64,000 bases of DNA, from assembly GCF_014385435.1 (NCBI RefSeq), contig NZ_JACSUD010000001.1, positions 1 to 64,000 on the forward strand, read 5' to 3'. Position 1 is the stretch's first letter. The number at the start of each line of letters is the position of its first letter. Under the pieces are notes generated by a model, which was not told where the DNA came from, did not search any database, and worked only from the letters and a program-made list of their open reading frames with translations. The stretch is from Alloprevotella sp. Lung230. GTDB taxonomy: Bacteria > Bacteroidota > Bacteroidia > Bacteroidales > Bacteroidaceae. Both the position numbers and the translations under genes were made by a program. Positions 10,183 to 63,537 of this stretch are shown piece by piece.

Positions 10183-10299
10183 GTAGTCAAAAGGTTCGGG
10201 ACAGGCGCGGCTACTTTCCCCCATGAAGACAAAAGTTGATGCGGACCTACACATTCTTACCTAGAAGTGTCGAAAAGTCAACTACGTCAAAGATATTCT

Positions 10300-10383
10300 A
10301 TAATTCAAGGTTTGGTTTATATAAACCAAGCTTTGAATTACATAAACCAAACCTTGAATTATATAAACCAAACCTTGGTTTAT
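10300..10383. repeat. Quadruple 21-bp near-palindromic intergenic array, AT-rich family, copy 1
   Basis: Four consecutive 21-bp units begin at 10300, 10321, 10342 and 10363. Each has ATAAACCAA near one end and TTGGTTTAT or TTGAATTAT/C at the other, so each is nearly its own reverse complement; unit 3 is the exact reverse complement of unit 1. It sits between convergent genes (helicase and prfC), flanked by both terminators. A related array is at 27914-27997. The remainder of the 400-bp gap holds only the two terminators. Confidence 0.9.
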
Positions 10384-10448
10384 AGATTACTCGTGAGCTT
10401 TCGAAGTTTTTCGGCTTCATAGCGAACTTCTGACAGCCGATGAAGAAG

Positions 10449-17428: not shown

Positions 17429-17475
17429 CACGTTGAAAATGAGGGGCTTAAAAAGCACTGAGCGGCTCGCAAATT

Positions 17476-17559
17476 TACCTCAGAGGTAGTTTTTTCTATC
17501 TCAGAGGTAAAAAAATCTACCTCTGAGATAAATAAATTTAGTTCTGAGGTAAATTTCAC
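17476..17559. repeat. Quadruple 21-bp near-palindromic array, CTCAGAG family, copy 1
   Basis: Four 21-bp units begin at 17476, 17497, 17518 and 17539. Each is centred on a dyad such as TACCTCAGAGGTA, followed by an A/T-rich linker. The array lies in the 370-bp divergent gap between the barrel-protein gene and pheT, starting about 50 bp upstream of the barrel gene start. A related array in reverse orientation is at 45007-45069. Confidence 0.88.
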
Positions 17560-27728: not shown

Positions 27729-27913
27729 AGGATTACCGAAATATCGAACAATGATGCCCACGAAAAAGCAAGGAAAAGAGCGGATGACTTCGGAATGGGC
27801 GTTCCGAAAGCCGACGTCTGCCGCCAAGGCAGCCCCACGGACGACAAACTCAACGGTATCGGACGAAAAGTTCCGCAGCCCACAGAAAAAGTTGTCGGGA
27901 AGCTTCGCAATCT

Positions 27914-27997
27914 ATAAACCAAGGTTTGGTTTATATAAACCAAAGTTTGAATTACATAAACCAAGGTTTGAATTATATAAACCAAACCTTGGTTTAT
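27914..27997. repeat. Quadruple 21-bp near-palindromic array, AT-rich family, copy 2
   Basis: Four 21-bp units begin at 27914, 27935, 27956 and 27977. Unit 4 is the exact reverse complement of unit 1, so the array as a whole is bounded by inverted repeats (ATAAACCAAGG...). By eye it differs from the copy at 10300-10383 at about 8 of 84 positions in the same orientation. It lies in the 636-bp divergent gap between the TolC and sulfatase genes; apart from this and two promoters I see nothing else there. Because 21 is a multiple of three it creates spurious open frames. Confidence 0.9.
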
Positions 27998-28169
27998 AGA
28001 TTATCTCCCATTCCGATCACTTTCGGAAGGAGGGAGATAAGTATGAAAGCCTCCGAAAGAAAGATGCGCCCATCGGCCGACACCATATATAATAGACCGT
28101 TCTTCTGCCACACCCCACCACCAATCGCAGGGACATCGGCCGAAAAGGCGGGACAAAAGTCTGCAAAAC

Positions 28170-52688: not shown

Positions 52689-52761
52689 AGCGGAAAACGA
52701 GACTCGAACTCGCGACCCCAACCTTGGCAAGGTTGTGCTCTACCAACTGAGCTATTTCCGC
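52689..52761 (-). tRNA. tRNA-Gly (anticodon GCC), copy 2 of cluster
   Basis: Seventy-three bases starting GCGGAAATAGCTCAGTTGG, with anticodon loop CTTGCCAAG giving GCC and T-loop TTCGAGT. The sequence is identical to 53058-53130. No CCA is encoded. Confidence 0.95.
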
Positions 52762-52771
52762 AAAATGAAAG

Positions 52772-52855
52772 TGAAGAGGAGGAGACTCGAACTCCCACGT
52801 CGCAATTGACACTACCCCCTCAAAGTAGCGCGTCTACCAATTCCGCCACCTCTCC
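52772..52855 (-). tRNA. tRNA-Leu (anticodon GAG)
   Basis: Eighty-four bases with a long variable arm, as for leucine tRNAs. The loop TTGAGGG gives anticodon GAG, and the acceptor GGAGAGG pairs with CCTCTTC with one wobble. Discriminator A. Confidence 0.93.
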
Positions 52856-52948
52856 ATTTTTCGTGGTTGTTCTGCTGTCGTTGGCTGATATCAGGGGGTG
52901 AATATCATCAGCAGAACTCTTGTTGCTTGTTGAATCATCGGGTTCTGT

Positions 52949-53029
52949 GCCCAGAACAGGACTCGAACCTGCACGTCGTGAAACACTCGCACCTGAAACG
53001 AGCGCGTCTACCATTCCGCCACCTGGGCT
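52949..53029 (-). tRNA. tRNA-Leu (anticodon CAG)
   Basis: Eighty-one bases with a variable arm. Acceptor GCCCAGG pairs with TCTGGGC, loop TTCAGGT gives anticodon CAG, and the discriminator is A. Confidence 0.93.
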
Positions 53030-53057
53030 TGAAGGTGATTCAACTTGTCCAAAAGTG

Positions 53058-53130
53058 AGCGGAAAACGAGACTCGAACTCGCGACCCCAACCTTGGCAAG
53101 GTTGTGCTCTACCAACTGAGCTATTTCCGC
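53058..53130 (-). tRNA. tRNA-Gly (anticodon GCC), copy 1 of cluster
   Basis: Seventy-three bases, identical to 52689-52761. This is the first tRNA of the minus-strand order Gly-Leu-Leu-Gly. Confidence 0.95.
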
Positions 53131-55648: not shown

Positions 55649-56467
55649 CTATTCTTCGGATTCGTCACCAGCAATCTGCCGGTAGAAGTCTGCATAGGCT
55701 TCGGCGTTGGATTCTTCGGTCGCCTGCAAGGTCGGCACGCCGTGCTGCGCGGCATAGTCAGTGAGTTCTGTATGTCCGCCGGCTTGCACAAATCCGTCCG
55801 AGAAGTGGACGCCCAGTCGGCCCAGCGAGTCAGGGCGGGTGAAGTCTATCCCGGTCTCGGCAAGGAGTTGCGAAGTGGCTTCTCGGAAGGTCAAGCAGGC
55901 GGTGGCGTTGGCGGGAGGCGGCAACGTGGGCATCTCGTCGTGGGCAGAGAAAATCACTTTGACATTAGCAAAAGGTGGATCTCCGCGGAAAGCCGTCTTG
56001 ATGTAGAGCGGCACCACAGCCGACATCCAGCCCTGACAGTGGATAATGTCGGGCACCCAACGGAGCTTCTTCACCGTCTCCAAGACACCGCGTGCATAGA
56101 AGATGGCACGCTCCATGTTGTCGGCATATTCCTTACCCTCGTCATCCACCATCATCGCGCGCTTCAAGAAGAAGTCGTCGTTGTCGATGAAGTACACTTG
56201 CATACGGGCGGCTTGGATGGAAGCCACTTTGATAATGAGGGGGTGGTCGGTTTCATCGATGGCAATGTTCATTCCCGACAAGCGAATGACTTCGTGCAAT
56301 TGGTTGCGACGCTCGTTGATGTTGCCCCATTTCGGCATGAAAGTGCGAATTTCAAAGCCGCTCTCTTGAATGGCTTGGGGGATTTGACGCCCGGCAGTGG
56401 CCATTTTCGACTCGGGAACATACGGGAAAATTTCTTGGGTGATGAACAGGATTTTCTTGGCTTTCAT
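55649..56467 (-). CDS. Short glycogen/starch synthase-like protein (GT5 N-terminal domain only)
   Basis: A 272-residue protein with the N-terminal fold of GT5 glycogen synthases: MKAKKILFITQEIFPYVPESKMATAGRQIPQAI (residues 1-33, with Lys of the KxGGL-type site changed to KMATAG) and PDIIHCQGWMSAVVPLYIKTAF. It lacks the C-terminal GT-B half (normally about 200 residues more) that binds ADP-glucose. It may therefore not be catalytic. A very similar length is usual for this Bacteroidales gene next to DUF4270, so it is not a recent truncation. Confidence 0.85.
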   Translation of the reverse strand: MKAKKILFITQEIFPYVPESKMATAGRQIPQAIQESGFEIRTFMPKWGNINERRNQLHEVIRLSGMNIAIDETDHPLIIKVASIQAARMQVYFIDNDDFFLKRAMMVDDEGKEYADNMERAIFYARGVLETVKKLRWVPDIIHCQGWMSAVVPLYIKTAFRGDPPFANVKVIFSAHDEMPTLPPPANATACLTFREATSQLLAETGIDFTRPDSLGRLGVHFSDGFVQAGGHTELTDYAAQHGVPTLQATEESNAEAYADFYRQIAGDESEE

Positions 56468-56570: not shown

Positions 56571-56726
56571 CGAAAAAAAACGGCAACTTGTCTGCTTTTA
56601 AGTATCTTTTTGCCCCACAATGTCGGAACGACCCGGCATTTTTCGCTTCAAAGGCGGTGAGGGCGATGGATGCCGAGGATATCGTGGAAGTGCGTTCCGG
56701 TGGCGCACTGGTCGTAGATAAATTTC

Positions 56727-56814
56727 GTCCCTTCGGGAAGAGACAAACGTCCCTTCGGGAAGAAACGAATGTCTCCTCGCGAAGAGACGAACGTCCCCTC
56801 GCGAAGGGACGAAA
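56727..56814. repeat. Quadruple 22-bp near-palindromic array, GTCCCTTCGGGAAG family, copy 1
   Basis: Four 22-bp units begin at 56727, 56749, 56771 and 56793. Each is an 18-bp near-palindrome (for example GTCCCCTCGCGAAGGGAC) plus a 4-bp linker. In reverse complement, all four units match 63381-63468 in the same order, and the similarity runs into both flanks. It lies in the 650-bp divergent gap between the short GT5 and exporter genes; beyond it and two promoters I see nothing else in that gap. Confidence 0.92.
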
Positions 56815-57055
56815 ACTACAAAGGAGCGGGAAACGCCTACTTCCCACCCACAGATGAGGGCGACACTCCGCACGAAGTCGGGGAAACAGACGGTCTGTGC
56901 CGCCACGTCGGCCCTCTCGCGGAAAGCACAACCCGAAGGCCGAAAAGCACCGTCCGAAAGAAAGCGAGGCTCGTCGGCCCCTGCCACAAGGGCATCGGAA
57001 GACACTGTGCAGAGGATGGAAAAGGGCCGGCAGGCGTTGGGTTTTGCTCCGAGAG

Positions 57056-57117: not shown

Positions 57118-58476
57118 ATGGCATCATCTCCCGAAACCCTCAACGAAAATGCACGCCGCGTGCACCGCAAGCTCACCATCCTGCTGCGCGCCGGCATGGT
57201 GCTGATGGAGAGTGCGGCCGACACCAACCGCATCGTCCGCAACATGAAGCGCATTGCCGCCTTCCTCGGGCTCGACGAGCGCTATCTGCACATCGATGTG
57301 CTCTACGGCACGCTCAAAGTCAATTACAGTGACGAGAGTCATTCGTTCAGCCGTTTTGTCCACTCCGACCGCTACACCATCAACATGAAAGCCCTTGCCG
57401 CGATGAGCCAACTCTCATGGCGCGCCATCCAGGAGGACTACACCATGTCGCGCTTTGAGCGGGTGGTCAACCGCATTGCACGCTCCCGCTCCGACTATCC
57501 CGCATGGCTCGTCACGCTGGGCGCTGCGATGGGTTGCGGGGGCTTTTGCGTGCTCTTCGGGGGCGACTGGCCCTCGTTCCTTCCGGCCATGGTGGCCGGT
57601 TGGGTGGGATTTTCGGTGCGGCGCGAGCTCTTGACACGCGGCTTCAACGTCTACATGGTCACCGCCCTCTCCGCCTTTCTGGCCACCCTGACGGTGTGGG
57701 GAATGATGCACCTGCTGCCGGAAGGATTTACCGACCACCCTTACCACCCCTTCCTCTCGTGCGCTCTCTTCCTCGTGCCCGGTGTGGCGCTCATCAACTT
57801 CCTCGACGACATGCTCGACAACTATTTGCTCATGGGGGTGGCGCGCTTCTCCAACGCCATGGTGCAGATTGCTTCGATGAGTTTCGGCATTGTGCTGGCC
57901 GTGAGTGTGTGCGGCGTCACCAACTTCTTGACCACACTGAGCATGGCGCCCGAAATCAGCTATTGGGAGGCCGCCATCGCCACCGGGATTTCGGCCATGG
58001 GCTTCGGCATGATTTTCAATGTGCCTCGGCGTTCGCTTCCGGCGGTTGCCCTGCTGGGCGTGTTGGCCATGTTCACACGCAACTTCATCGGATTCGAACT
58101 GGGACAGGGCTTGGTACTGGGATCGCTGGCCGGTGCTTCGCTCGTTTCCCTCATCGCGGTGCGCTTGGTGCAGCCCACGCGCAGCCCCAACCACGTGCTG
58201 AGCATTCCGAGCGTCATCCCGATGGTGCCGGGCATCTTGATGTATCGCGGCATTTTTGGTTTTGTGCGCATGGGCAACGAGGTAGAAGGTTTCCTGCGCT
58301 CCTTCGACTTTATGGTCAACGCCGCCCTCATCGTGCTGTGCATCTCCATCGGTGTGGCCATCCCCAACATCTTTGCCCGCCGCTGGATAGCCTCCACCCG
58401 CCGTGCCCACCTGAGCCGCCTCATCGAGGAACGCCGCAGCCGCGGCAAGTTTGTCGACCTTTCGGATTTCGACTGA
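57118..58476 (+). CDS. Threonine/serine exporter family protein (ThrE-like)
   Basis: A 452-residue fused ThrE protein. The N-terminal soluble region ending RRVHRKLTILLRAGMVLMESAADTNRIVRNMKRIAAFLGL (about residues 12-52) is the family signature. About ten membrane spans follow, in two halves: the first GCGGFCVLFGGDWPSFLPAMVAGWVGFSVRREL, the second PEISYWEAAIATGISAMGFGMIFNVPRRSLP and SIPSVIPMVPGILMYRGIFGFV. Family knowledge: export of threonine and serine. The start at 57118 matches the promoter; the open frame to 56854 contains the repeat-flank region. Confidence 0.92.
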   Translation: MASSPETLNENARRVHRKLTILLRAGMVLMESAADTNRIVRNMKRIAAFLGLDERYLHIDVLYGTLKVNYSDESHSFSRFVHSDRYTINMKALAAMSQLSWRAIQEDYTMSRFERVVNRIARSRSDYPAWLVTLGAAMGCGGFCVLFGGDWPSFLPAMVAGWVGFSVRRELLTRGFNVYMVTALSAFLATLTVWGMMHLLPEGFTDHPYHPFLSCALFLVPGVALINFLDDMLDNYLLMGVARFSNAMVQIASMSFGIVLAVSVCGVTNFLTTLSMAPEISYWEAAIATGISAMGFGMIFNVPRRSLPAVALLGVLAMFTRNFIGFELGQGLVLGSLAGASLVSLIAVRLVQPTRSPNHVLSIPSVIPMVPGILMYRGIFGFVRMGNEVEGFLRSFDFMVNAALIVLCISIGVAIPNIFARRWIASTRRAHLSRLIEERRSRGKFVDLSDFD

Positions 58477-60969: not shown

Positions 60970-63177
60970 CTACTTCCCGCCCATGACGAAGACGAGGCGG
61001 CCGCCGCGCACGATGTCGGCGTGTGAAATCGTGGGTTTCTTCCAGCGCTTGCCGTTGAGCCAAATCTCCTTGACGTAGAGATTGTCTTTCGACAGGTTGT
61101 GCGCTTCGATGACAAAGGTGCGGCCGCCGGGCAGGTGGAGCGTGACGGCAGGAAGTTGCGGCGCACCAAAGACGTACTGTCCGCTCACAGGGTCGACTGG
61201 ATAGAAGCCCATGGCCGAAAGCATGTACCACGCCGACATTTGCCCGCAATCGTCGTTGCCGCAAAGCCCCTCGGGTGTGGGGTGATACTGCGTGTCGCAA
61301 ATCTCACGCACCAACTCCTGCGTGCGCTCCGGCCGACCGGCCAGGGCGTAGAGATAGGCCACGTGGTGGGAAGGCTCGTTGCCGTGGGCATACTGTCCGA
61401 TGAGTCCCGTCACGTCAGGGAGGTTGACATCTTTGAGTTCGACCACAAAGAGACTGTCGAGCTTGTTGAGGAAGCGCTCACGGCCGCCCATCAAGCGGAT
61501 GAGGCCGGGCACATCGTGCTGCACGTGCCAAGTGTACTGCCAGGCGTTGCCCTCGGTGTAGTCGCCCGTGCCGCTCTCGGCGTGGCCGATGGCATCGGGG
61601 TGGAAAGGCGTGCGCCAGCGGCCTTGGCTGTCCTTGGGACGCATAAATCTGGTCGTGGGGTCGAAGAGGTGCTTGAAGTTGTCGGCGCGGGCAGCAAAGA
61701 ATTTCGCATCGCTCTTCTTGCCCAGTCGGCGGGCAAAGTCGGCCGCAGCATAATCGTCATAACAGAACTCTAAGGTTTGCGAAACACTTTCCAGCGGGAT
61801 GAGATCGTAGGGGTAGTAGCCGTAGCGGTTGTAGACCTCCCAATTCGATTTGGCAGGATGACTCTCCATGAGGGTCTTGCGCACCATGGCATAAGCCCTC
61901 TCGGCATCAAAACCCTTGATACCTTTGGCGTAGGCTTCGGCAATGACGCTCACGGCGTGGTTGCCAATCATCGTCTGCGTTTCTTTGCCCCACAGTGCCC
62001 AGATGGGGAGAAAACCTTGGTCCTCACCTTGCGCAATCATCGAGTTGACAAAAGCCCCCACCTTCTCGGGCGTCACCAGCGTGTAGAGCGGATGTGCCGC
62101 GCGATAGGTGTCCCAGAGCGAAAGAGTGGAATACATCTCCGTGCCGTCCACCGCCTTGACCTCCTCGCGACGGGTGTTGCGATAGCTGCCGTCGACGTCG
62201 GCGATGTTGTTGGGCTGGATGAGGGCGTGGTAGAACGAGGTGTAGAACATCTTCATCTGTTCCTCCGTGCCGGCGATGTCGATGCGGGAGAGATACTGTT
62301 CCCACGCCGCTTCGGCCGCTTCGGCCGTCTGATCAAACTGCTGCCAGCCGGGGAGTTCGGCCGCCAGATTGCGCCGAGCGCCCGCCACGCTGTGGGTCGA
62401 GAGGGCCACCTTCATCTCCAGCACCCCGGAGTCGGGAAAGTCCACCAGCAGGCGGCTGCCTTTGAATCCGGCGATGGGATTGAGCGAGGTGAAGCGCGTC
62501 ATCGGTTGCGAAAAACTAATGACAAAATAGACATCCTTGTCCACCCAAACCTCGCTGCGGATGTGTCCCGACAACGTCTGAGCATCGTCCCAGACAAACT
62601 CACACTCCTTGACGCGCTTGCGATAGCCCTCCCACGTCCAGGTGGGGCCGTGCTGCAAGTCGATGTAGACCGAGCGACGCGCACCGGGCTGAAACGTGTG
62701 TCGATAGTAGGCAACGTGGGGCGTGGCAGTGGCCTCCGTGCGCACCCCGGCATCGAGAAGTTCCACGGCGTAGTAGCCCGGGCGCGCTGTCTCCGTGCCC
62801 TTGCGACTGCCGAAGAGGTTCACCTTGTCGTTGCTTTGCGCCACGCCCGCCGTGTCGGCGATTTGGGCATACTGCCGCGAGACGGGCATGATGAGCAGGT
62901 CGCCCAGGTCGGTGCACCCCGTGCCGTTGAGGTGAGTCTGTGCGAAACCCCAGAAGCGGGCATCGCTGTGGATGTAGCCCGAGCAATACTTCCAGCCGGC
63001 CACGCCCGACGAGGGTCCGGGCTGCACGAGGCCGAAGGGGACAGTGGCGCCGGGAAAGGTGTGTCCCGTGGCGGCTGTGCCGATGAAGGGGTCGACGTGG
63101 CGCGTGTGCTTGTGGGCCGCGGCGGTGAGGGCAGCCCCCATCAGGAGCGCGGAGAGAAAGAAAGATTTGAGGATCAT
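60970..63177 (-). CDS. Glycoside hydrolase family 92 alpha-mannosidase
   Basis: A 735-residue exported GH92. The signal peptide MILKSFFLSALLMGAALTAAAH is followed by the family hallmark HVDPFIGTAATGHTFPGATVPFGLVQPGP (residues 27-55). Later conserved parts are WDTYRAAHPLYTLVTPEKVGAFVNSMIAQ, GNEPSHHVAYLY (about 600) and GNDDCGQMSAWYMLSAMGFYPVDPVSGQY (about 640). Family knowledge: calcium-dependent exo-acting alpha-mannosidases that trim N-glycan mannose. The start at 63177 is preferred to 63252. No SusC/D pair flanks it in the visible region. Confidence 0.95.
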   Translation of the reverse strand: MILKSFFLSALLMGAALTAAAHKHTRHVDPFIGTAATGHTFPGATVPFGLVQPGPSSGVAGWKYCSGYIHSDARFWGFAQTHLNGTGCTDLGDLLIMPVSRQYAQIADTAGVAQSNDKVNLFGSRKGTETARPGYYAVELLDAGVRTEATATPHVAYYRHTFQPGARRSVYIDLQHGPTWTWEGYRKRVKECEFVWDDAQTLSGHIRSEVWVDKDVYFVISFSQPMTRFTSLNPIAGFKGSRLLVDFPDSGVLEMKVALSTHSVAGARRNLAAELPGWQQFDQTAEAAEAAWEQYLSRIDIAGTEEQMKMFYTSFYHALIQPNNIADVDGSYRNTRREEVKAVDGTEMYSTLSLWDTYRAAHPLYTLVTPEKVGAFVNSMIAQGEDQGFLPIWALWGKETQTMIGNHAVSVIAEAYAKGIKGFDAERAYAMVRKTLMESHPAKSNWEVYNRYGYYPYDLIPLESVSQTLEFCYDDYAAADFARRLGKKSDAKFFAARADNFKHLFDPTTRFMRPKDSQGRWRTPFHPDAIGHAESGTGDYTEGNAWQYTWHVQHDVPGLIRLMGGRERFLNKLDSLFVVELKDVNLPDVTGLIGQYAHGNEPSHHVAYLYALAGRPERTQELVREICDTQYHPTPEGLCGNDDCGQMSAWYMLSAMGFYPVDPVSGQYVFGAPQLPAVTLHLPGGRTFVIEAHNLSKDNLYVKEIWLNGKRWKKPTISHADIVRGGRLVFVMGGK

Positions 63178-63239: not shown

Positions 63240-63380
63240 GCCGAGACACCATCCACCTGCATTTTTACGCAAGAAAAGCACACGCACAGCAGAACATTTT
63301 CATCGGAACTCCGAAACGCTGCGCGTTTTTCTCCACTCTCCGCACAAGAAGTAGTTTGTTTTCCGAGGCTCGCAGCATTC

Positions 63381-63468
63381 GTCCCTTCCCGATGGGACAT
63401 TCGTCTCTTCCCGAGGAAACATTCGTTTCTTCGCGAAGGGACGTTTGTCTCTTCCTGAAGGGACGAAA
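63381..63468. repeat. Quadruple 22-bp near-palindromic array, GTCCCTTCGGGAAG family, copy 2
   Basis: Units begin at 63381, 63403, 63425 and 63447. They match the reverse complement of the array at 56727-56814 unit by unit, with a similar flanking sequence on both sides. It lies between the GH92 promoter and MITE copy 2, inside a 680-bp gap. Confidence 0.92.
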
Positions 63469-63537
63469 ATTACCTGCGACTCGCGCGCCGGTGGAAGGCA
63501 CTCCGTTGCGCCGACCACTTTGCCCCCCTTTTTAGAT

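Follow-up and report, generated by a model that had tools for sequence, protein, structure and literature searches.

Within the 64-kb window, which is the whole stretch of DNA that was analysed, lie two arrays that each comprise four 20-bp imperfect dyads joined by 2-bp spacers, one at 56726–56811 on the forward strand and one at 63380–63465 on the reverse strand. Both are placed between divergent genes, the first between a glycogen synthase and a ThrE exporter and the second between a glycoside hydrolase family 92 (GH92) gene and an unnamed gene. These arrays, here called family A, share the window with arrays of families B and C.

55649–56467, reverse strand: gene with a starch/glycogen synthase domain (PF08323), a neighbour given for context only
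56690–56725, reverse strand: left arm of the 56726 element, with loose conservation over some 36 bp outward; also present in the copies at 63380 and 93464
56726–56811, forward strand: family A array, YGTYYCNTCNNGANGRRACR (20 bp) four times, at 56726, 56748, 56770 and 56792, with AA joints and a pitch of 22 bp
56812–56847, forward strand: right arm of the 56726 element, with the same loose consensus inverted, AWnACTAYnnGCG...GCGACCGGAAnC
57118–58476, forward strand: gene for a ThrE threonine/serine exporter (PF06738), a neighbour given for context only
60970–63177, reverse strand: gene of glycoside hydrolase family 92 (PF07971), a neighbour given for context only
63344–63379, reverse strand: opposite arm of the 63380 element, with weak conservation
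63380–63465, reverse strand: second family A array, with units and order as in the 56726 array once reverse-complemented
63466–63501, forward strand: one arm of the 63380 element, a homologue of the left arm at 56690–56725
10298–10385, forward strand: family B array, four dyads TAA(AC/TT)CAANNNTTG(GT/AA)TTA at 21 bp, of the same design as family A in unrelated sequence
17475–17552, forward strand: family C array, four CTA-N9-TAG units with core CCTCAGAGG and A/T hexamers between them, at a pitch of 21 bp
27912–27999, forward strand: family B array of four dyads with a 21-bp pitch; the array at C1:301174 is identical but has different flanks

The initial annotation had described the family A pair as four-unit arrays with the same unit order in opposite orientation, and this was borne out. 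With the 63380 array turned to the opposite strand, the two copies match in register at 73 of their 80 unit bases, a score that tops all 24 unit orders, whose mean is 65.5, and a similarity search aligns 56702–56813 with 63378–63489 at 88% (E 1.6e-35). One flank is common to both copies over about 36 bp, the match reaching back to about 56689. The annotation's claim that similarity extends into both flanks also stands, in that loose conservation of the family A arms reaches about +36 on either side, although this very extent makes the element nearer 160 bp than the 140 bp proposed. No Rfam model matched at the window arrays at gathering thresholds, and a known structured RNA family was rejected on that ground. 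Elsewhere the window carries an L13-Bacteroidia leader and, at 52689–53130 on the reverse strand, four clustered tRNA genes, a pair of which score identically.

Across the 2.49-Mb genome, family A occupies 14 loci, of which 12 hold four units, one holds two and one holds a single unit. A degenerate two-unit pattern finds 16 forward and 17 reverse matches in the genome as opposed to none for the reversed control, so the pattern is not a product of chance, and the further copies uphold the view that this is a dispersed element of low copy number and not the outcome of separate expansions at each site. Unit number in family A is constrained, not fixed. The conserved unit order holds for the trio 56726/63380/93464 (the last being C1:93464), but not family-wide, as just 7 of the 66 family A pairs score highest with their units in register; sequence comparison supports the two window copies and C1:93464 being copies of one another. 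All 14 arrays are intergenic according to gene calls made with a home-made hexamer caller rather than a published one. The orientation of their neighbouring genes (six tandem, five divergent, two convergent and one contig end) resembles the background of 52/22/17, on which ground a promoter or terminator bias was rejected.

Family A was absent from 57 congeners, and a degenerate pattern of its junctions, searched for in about 85,000 species from which records of the source genome were possibly left out, gave a single match, in an alphaproteobacterium, that is probably due to chance. As far as these sequences tell, family A is private to the species. The congeners, too diverged or not syntenic at the corresponding regions, offered no orthologous site at which family A could be compared. 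The patterns of families A, B and D had no match in IMG/VR, and a phage origin was rejected for that reason.

The design is not confined to one sequence. At least five sequence-unrelated families (A–E), with about 125 arrays in one genome, usually have three to four dyads at exactly 21 or 22 bp, lie mostly between genes and, where examined, carry mirror-symmetric arms. Genome searches returned about 40 B arrays and about 40 C arrays, with a further pattern search adding to C; random stretches sampled from the genome brought out family D (about 9 arrays) and family E (about 10), and these two and any others found in this way come from 18% of the genome. Four more 22-bp arrays of other sequences (G000: L216:12714-12773, L224:15824-15895, L224:3198-3252 and L212:15089-15154) are candidate families beyond these. 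By pattern, family B comprises 27 arrays of four units, six of three, two of two, two of one and one of five, a count in which at least two degenerate arrays (C1:402210 and C6:24741) come out one unit short and two further single-unit sites are unmatched. The modal number is four in B and E and three in C and D, so that the fixed number of four that had been suggested holds for 12 of 14 family A arrays without being a rule for the design.

Pitch is more uniform than unit number. Joints fall at 22 bp in families A (39/39), D (16/16) and E (25/25) and at 21 bp in B (99/99); in C there are 81 at 21 bp plus four at 42 bp, the latter because one unit went unrecognised. No off-pitch joint was seen in families A–E, in statistics that rest on similarity and pattern searches, which favour regular arrays. 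B and C arrays segregate by contig, with a co-occurrence of 93 against an expected 139 ± 8 and with one contig, C3, holding 11 C arrays and no B array. This could reflect a marking of chromosome domains; tested as a macrodomain effect against distance from oriC, the segregation gave p values of 0.09–0.46 that vary with the assumed origin. Some C arrays lie inside predicted genes (G000:C11:70372-70451, C3:27704-27785 and C3:7828-7892) and may be readable there as heptapeptide repeats, 21 bp being seven codons.

Sampled congeners hold 21–22-bp arrays of other sequences, and relatives also hold arrays of this period that are not clearly palindromic. Of 58 genomes of the genus, 20 contain the family C skeleton, CTA-N9-TAR-W6, for which the reversed control gave hardly any matches. 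The cores within the skeleton differ between species (e.g., CTACTCGGCGTTTAG, CTAGTCGGCGACTAG and CTAGGTCCGCGGTAG). Counts are high in a few genomes (G000 33, G010 54, G023 36); many of the 20 have one to five matches, and single matches can be chance. In the wider family, outside the genus, G113 alone was clearly above control. It is important to stress that this skeleton test concerns family C, and that it would bear on family A through the shared design.

The bases of the dyads themselves are unevenly constrained. In family A half-sites, T3, C6, T8 and C9 are present in 102/102 and G2 in 101/102, while positions 1, 4, 5, 7 and 10 vary; judged from the sequences, this is the pattern to be expected of contacted and uncontacted bases. 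Family B half-sites fall into two discrete states, TAAACCAA (193) and TAATTCAA (81), the position counts showing no intermediates among the 274 half-sites; these states (AC or TT) look copied from two templates, pointing to recent copying rather than binding-site degeneracy. The B arms carry A[C/G]TTT near +19 and +40, and weakly near +61, at the array's own 21-bp phase and on both sides in 33 of 36 arrays. In the outward first 14 bases of the same arms, TAnnTTTG was found in 12/72 as compared with 1/72 in a control stretch. TAnnTTTG is the Bacteroidota -7 promoter motif, and outward promoters in the B arms are possible.

The arms also inform on how the arrays multiply. B arrays that are 97–100% identical at different loci have arms that are 47% identical beside the array and 24% beyond +50, which is barely above the 36% of unrelated pairs near the array and at background beyond +50. 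On these comparisons, copying or homogenisation thus seems to have affected the cores of B arrays and left their flanks out. The idea that B arrays land between arms already in place was rejected, as 464 kb held no arm pair without an array.

The reading we favour, with moderate confidence and from sequence comparison, is that the phased palindromes are docking arrays for putative dimeric DNA-binding proteins, spread as small dispersed elements. Each 20-bp imperfect dyad would be an operator-like site for such a sequence-specific dimer, and with sites exactly two helical turns apart (22 bp in A, 21 bp in other families) one dimer would sit on every two turns. Some four dimers could then stand side by side on one helix face, making cooperative binding possible, while the mirror-symmetric arms would lengthen the element on both sides and its copies would be dispersed into intergenic DNA. 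The reading draws on the observed copy number, geometry, invariant half-site positions, lack of covariation and intergenic placement. In its favour we count that the pitch is invariant despite family A units differing at many positions, that half-sites combine invariant with free positions, that the arm motif of family B keeps the 21-bp phase, that at least five unrelated sequences and the arrays of congeners share one geometry, and that orientation relative to genes is like background. Against it we count the search bias in the pitch statistics, the polarity of founder units, the discrete half-site states of family B and the arrays in relatives that are not clearly palindromic. We infer the existence of the protein, its cooperativity and any downstream role, which might lie in local nucleoid structure, insulation or regulation.

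The initial annotation had left the choice between a folded hairpin and a protein-binding array, and the binding array fits better because the pitch is exact, the half-site positions are invariant and compensatory changes are not enriched. That the arrays are instead RNA or single-strand hairpin elements (REP/BIME-like, mRNA stabilisers, attenuators or substrates of a Y1 transposase) appears quite improbable, even though folding predictions for four window arrays gave long nested hairpins on either strand in every case (z −6 to −12). Stability on paper is expected from any array of near-palindromes, and pairing between units is not specific: nested 1-4/2-3 pairing is no better than 1-3/2-4, which makes the fold a by-product of near-palindromic units. 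Perfect dyads are rare (A 1/51, B 15/137, D 1/25, E 2/35), and the compensatory changes that the annotation had suggested looking for are, with arrays oriented, at or below shuffle expectation in all five families (A 13 vs 16.9, B 6 vs 28, C 5 vs 5.3, D 1 vs 1.6, E 3 vs 6.9). The dyad is therefore not kept as a stem, and hairpin covariation within and between units was rejected. The deficit, seen in B even with oriented arrays, may arise partly from asymmetric or polar founder units, and we read it as an absence of stem selection, not as proof of selection against palindromes. Moreover, neither the orientation of the arrays nor their position with respect to genes is fixed, and family A arrays typically have T before and A after on both strands, leaving no U-run behind the stem. 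The genome does hold one gene for a Y1_Tnp (RAYT-type) protein of about 150 aa (G000:C3:119869-120216, L231), but it sits within a dense and separate repeat complex (CGCCCCCGAAGGGGACGCC, CCGTAGG...CCTACGG) and not among family A repeats; gene and repeats are a REP-like system of their own.

A better, if still somewhat unlikely, alternative to docking arrays is a non-autonomous MITE-like element with an incidental short minisatellite, as in BrickBuilt, whose dyads would be just substrates of a transposase or of recombination and which would spread by transposition or ectopic recombination. Such an element would be dispersed, intergenic and private to the species, as family A is; the trio has unit order and one arm in common, and the one- and two-unit copies resemble deletion products. 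Likewise, G010, the nearest relative sampled, lacks one family D array together with the DNA around it, the genes on either side being near-identical, although the junction is not clean. What this account lacks is ends: around the 14 family A arrays there is no consistent target-site duplication (TSD) and no sharp or long terminal inverted repeat (TIR), so that neither the element ends and target duplication that the annotation proposed defining nor the TIR and TSD of a MITE in general were recovered, and conservation fades smoothly outward instead of peaking at the ends. Copying alone also leaves the same pitch and the three to four units of unrelated families unexplained. Ordinary tandem-duplication noise or an assembly artefact, without significance, is very improbable; bacterial genomes often contain short tandem repeats and some G010 contig ends fall in such arrays, but the exact pitch, the dispersal in many copies, the empty reversed control, the mirror-symmetric arms and the recurrence of one design in several sequence families and species all speak against it.

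Palindromes scattered through bacterial genomes tend to be regarded as remnants of REPs or MITEs. The same helical geometry over unrelated sequences in one genome and over others in related species points instead to a constraint of DNA–protein architecture, not of sequence or RNA folding, and if a binder exists, the docking arrays would make up, in Bacteroidia, a new class of chromosomal binding system that is defined by repeats. These elements are also a test case for identical short arrays arising at unlinked sites with unrelated flanks. A more speculative extension, which we consider doubtful, is docking on a lineage-wide scale, in which the geometry (two turns per dyad, about three to four dyads, symmetric arms) would be kept while the core sequence turns over between species, the families marking chromosome regions and possibly co-evolving with fast-diverging DNA-binding proteins.

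Among known systems, the initial annotation had raised BrickBuilt, a MITE of Porphyromonas gingivalis that has 1 to 22.8 direct repeats of 23 bp, about 19 copies, a leader and a tail that are free of repeats and reach up to about 300 bp, and terminal inverted repeats of IS5 type (PMC4596501). The likeness is one of kind only: both occur in Bacteroidota as species-restricted, intergenic tandem repeats within a dispersed element with predicted long stem-loops (PMC4596501), and family A is indeed multi-copy, intergenic in 14/14 cases and absent from the 57 congeners. In contrast to BrickBuilt, however, the units are dyads, usually three to four in number, with short mirror-symmetric arms and at least five families in one genome. 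Unit number behaves differently too, family A having a 22-bp pitch and four units in 12/14 arrays, and the BrickBuilt terminal inverted repeat GAGACCTTTGCA and IS5-type ends find no better match in the flanks of the 14 family A arrays than in shuffled flanks. REPs have an unpaired GTAG/CGTC tag on one side and form mostly head-to-head dimers, with GTAG types associated with RAYT genes (PMC3733652). The arrays resemble them as short, mainly intergenic palindromes with many copies and several families per genome, and the family A unit starts with CGTC (PMC3733652); they differ in that CGTC...GACG lies inside the family A dyad on both sides and in forming direct arrays of three to four units at a fixed helical pitch. 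A RAYT/REP origin was rejected, the sole Y1_Tnp gene being flanked by its different repeat, as was a CRISPR array, with just 2 bp between the 20-bp family A dyads. Operator and iteron arrays (e.g., plasmid iterons) are tandem binding sites two helical turns apart that lie beside the binder's gene at one control locus. The present arrays share their spacing of about 22 bp on one helix face and their operator-like half-sites, yet are dispersed over dozens of intergenic sites without a linked binder identified. The literature searched yielded no description of multi-family arrays of such design, and since the tested defining features fail for both BrickBuilt and REPs, the arrays belong to neither. 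We file them as a variant of dispersed extragenic palindromic repeats, of which BrickBuilt and REPs are the closest described kinds.
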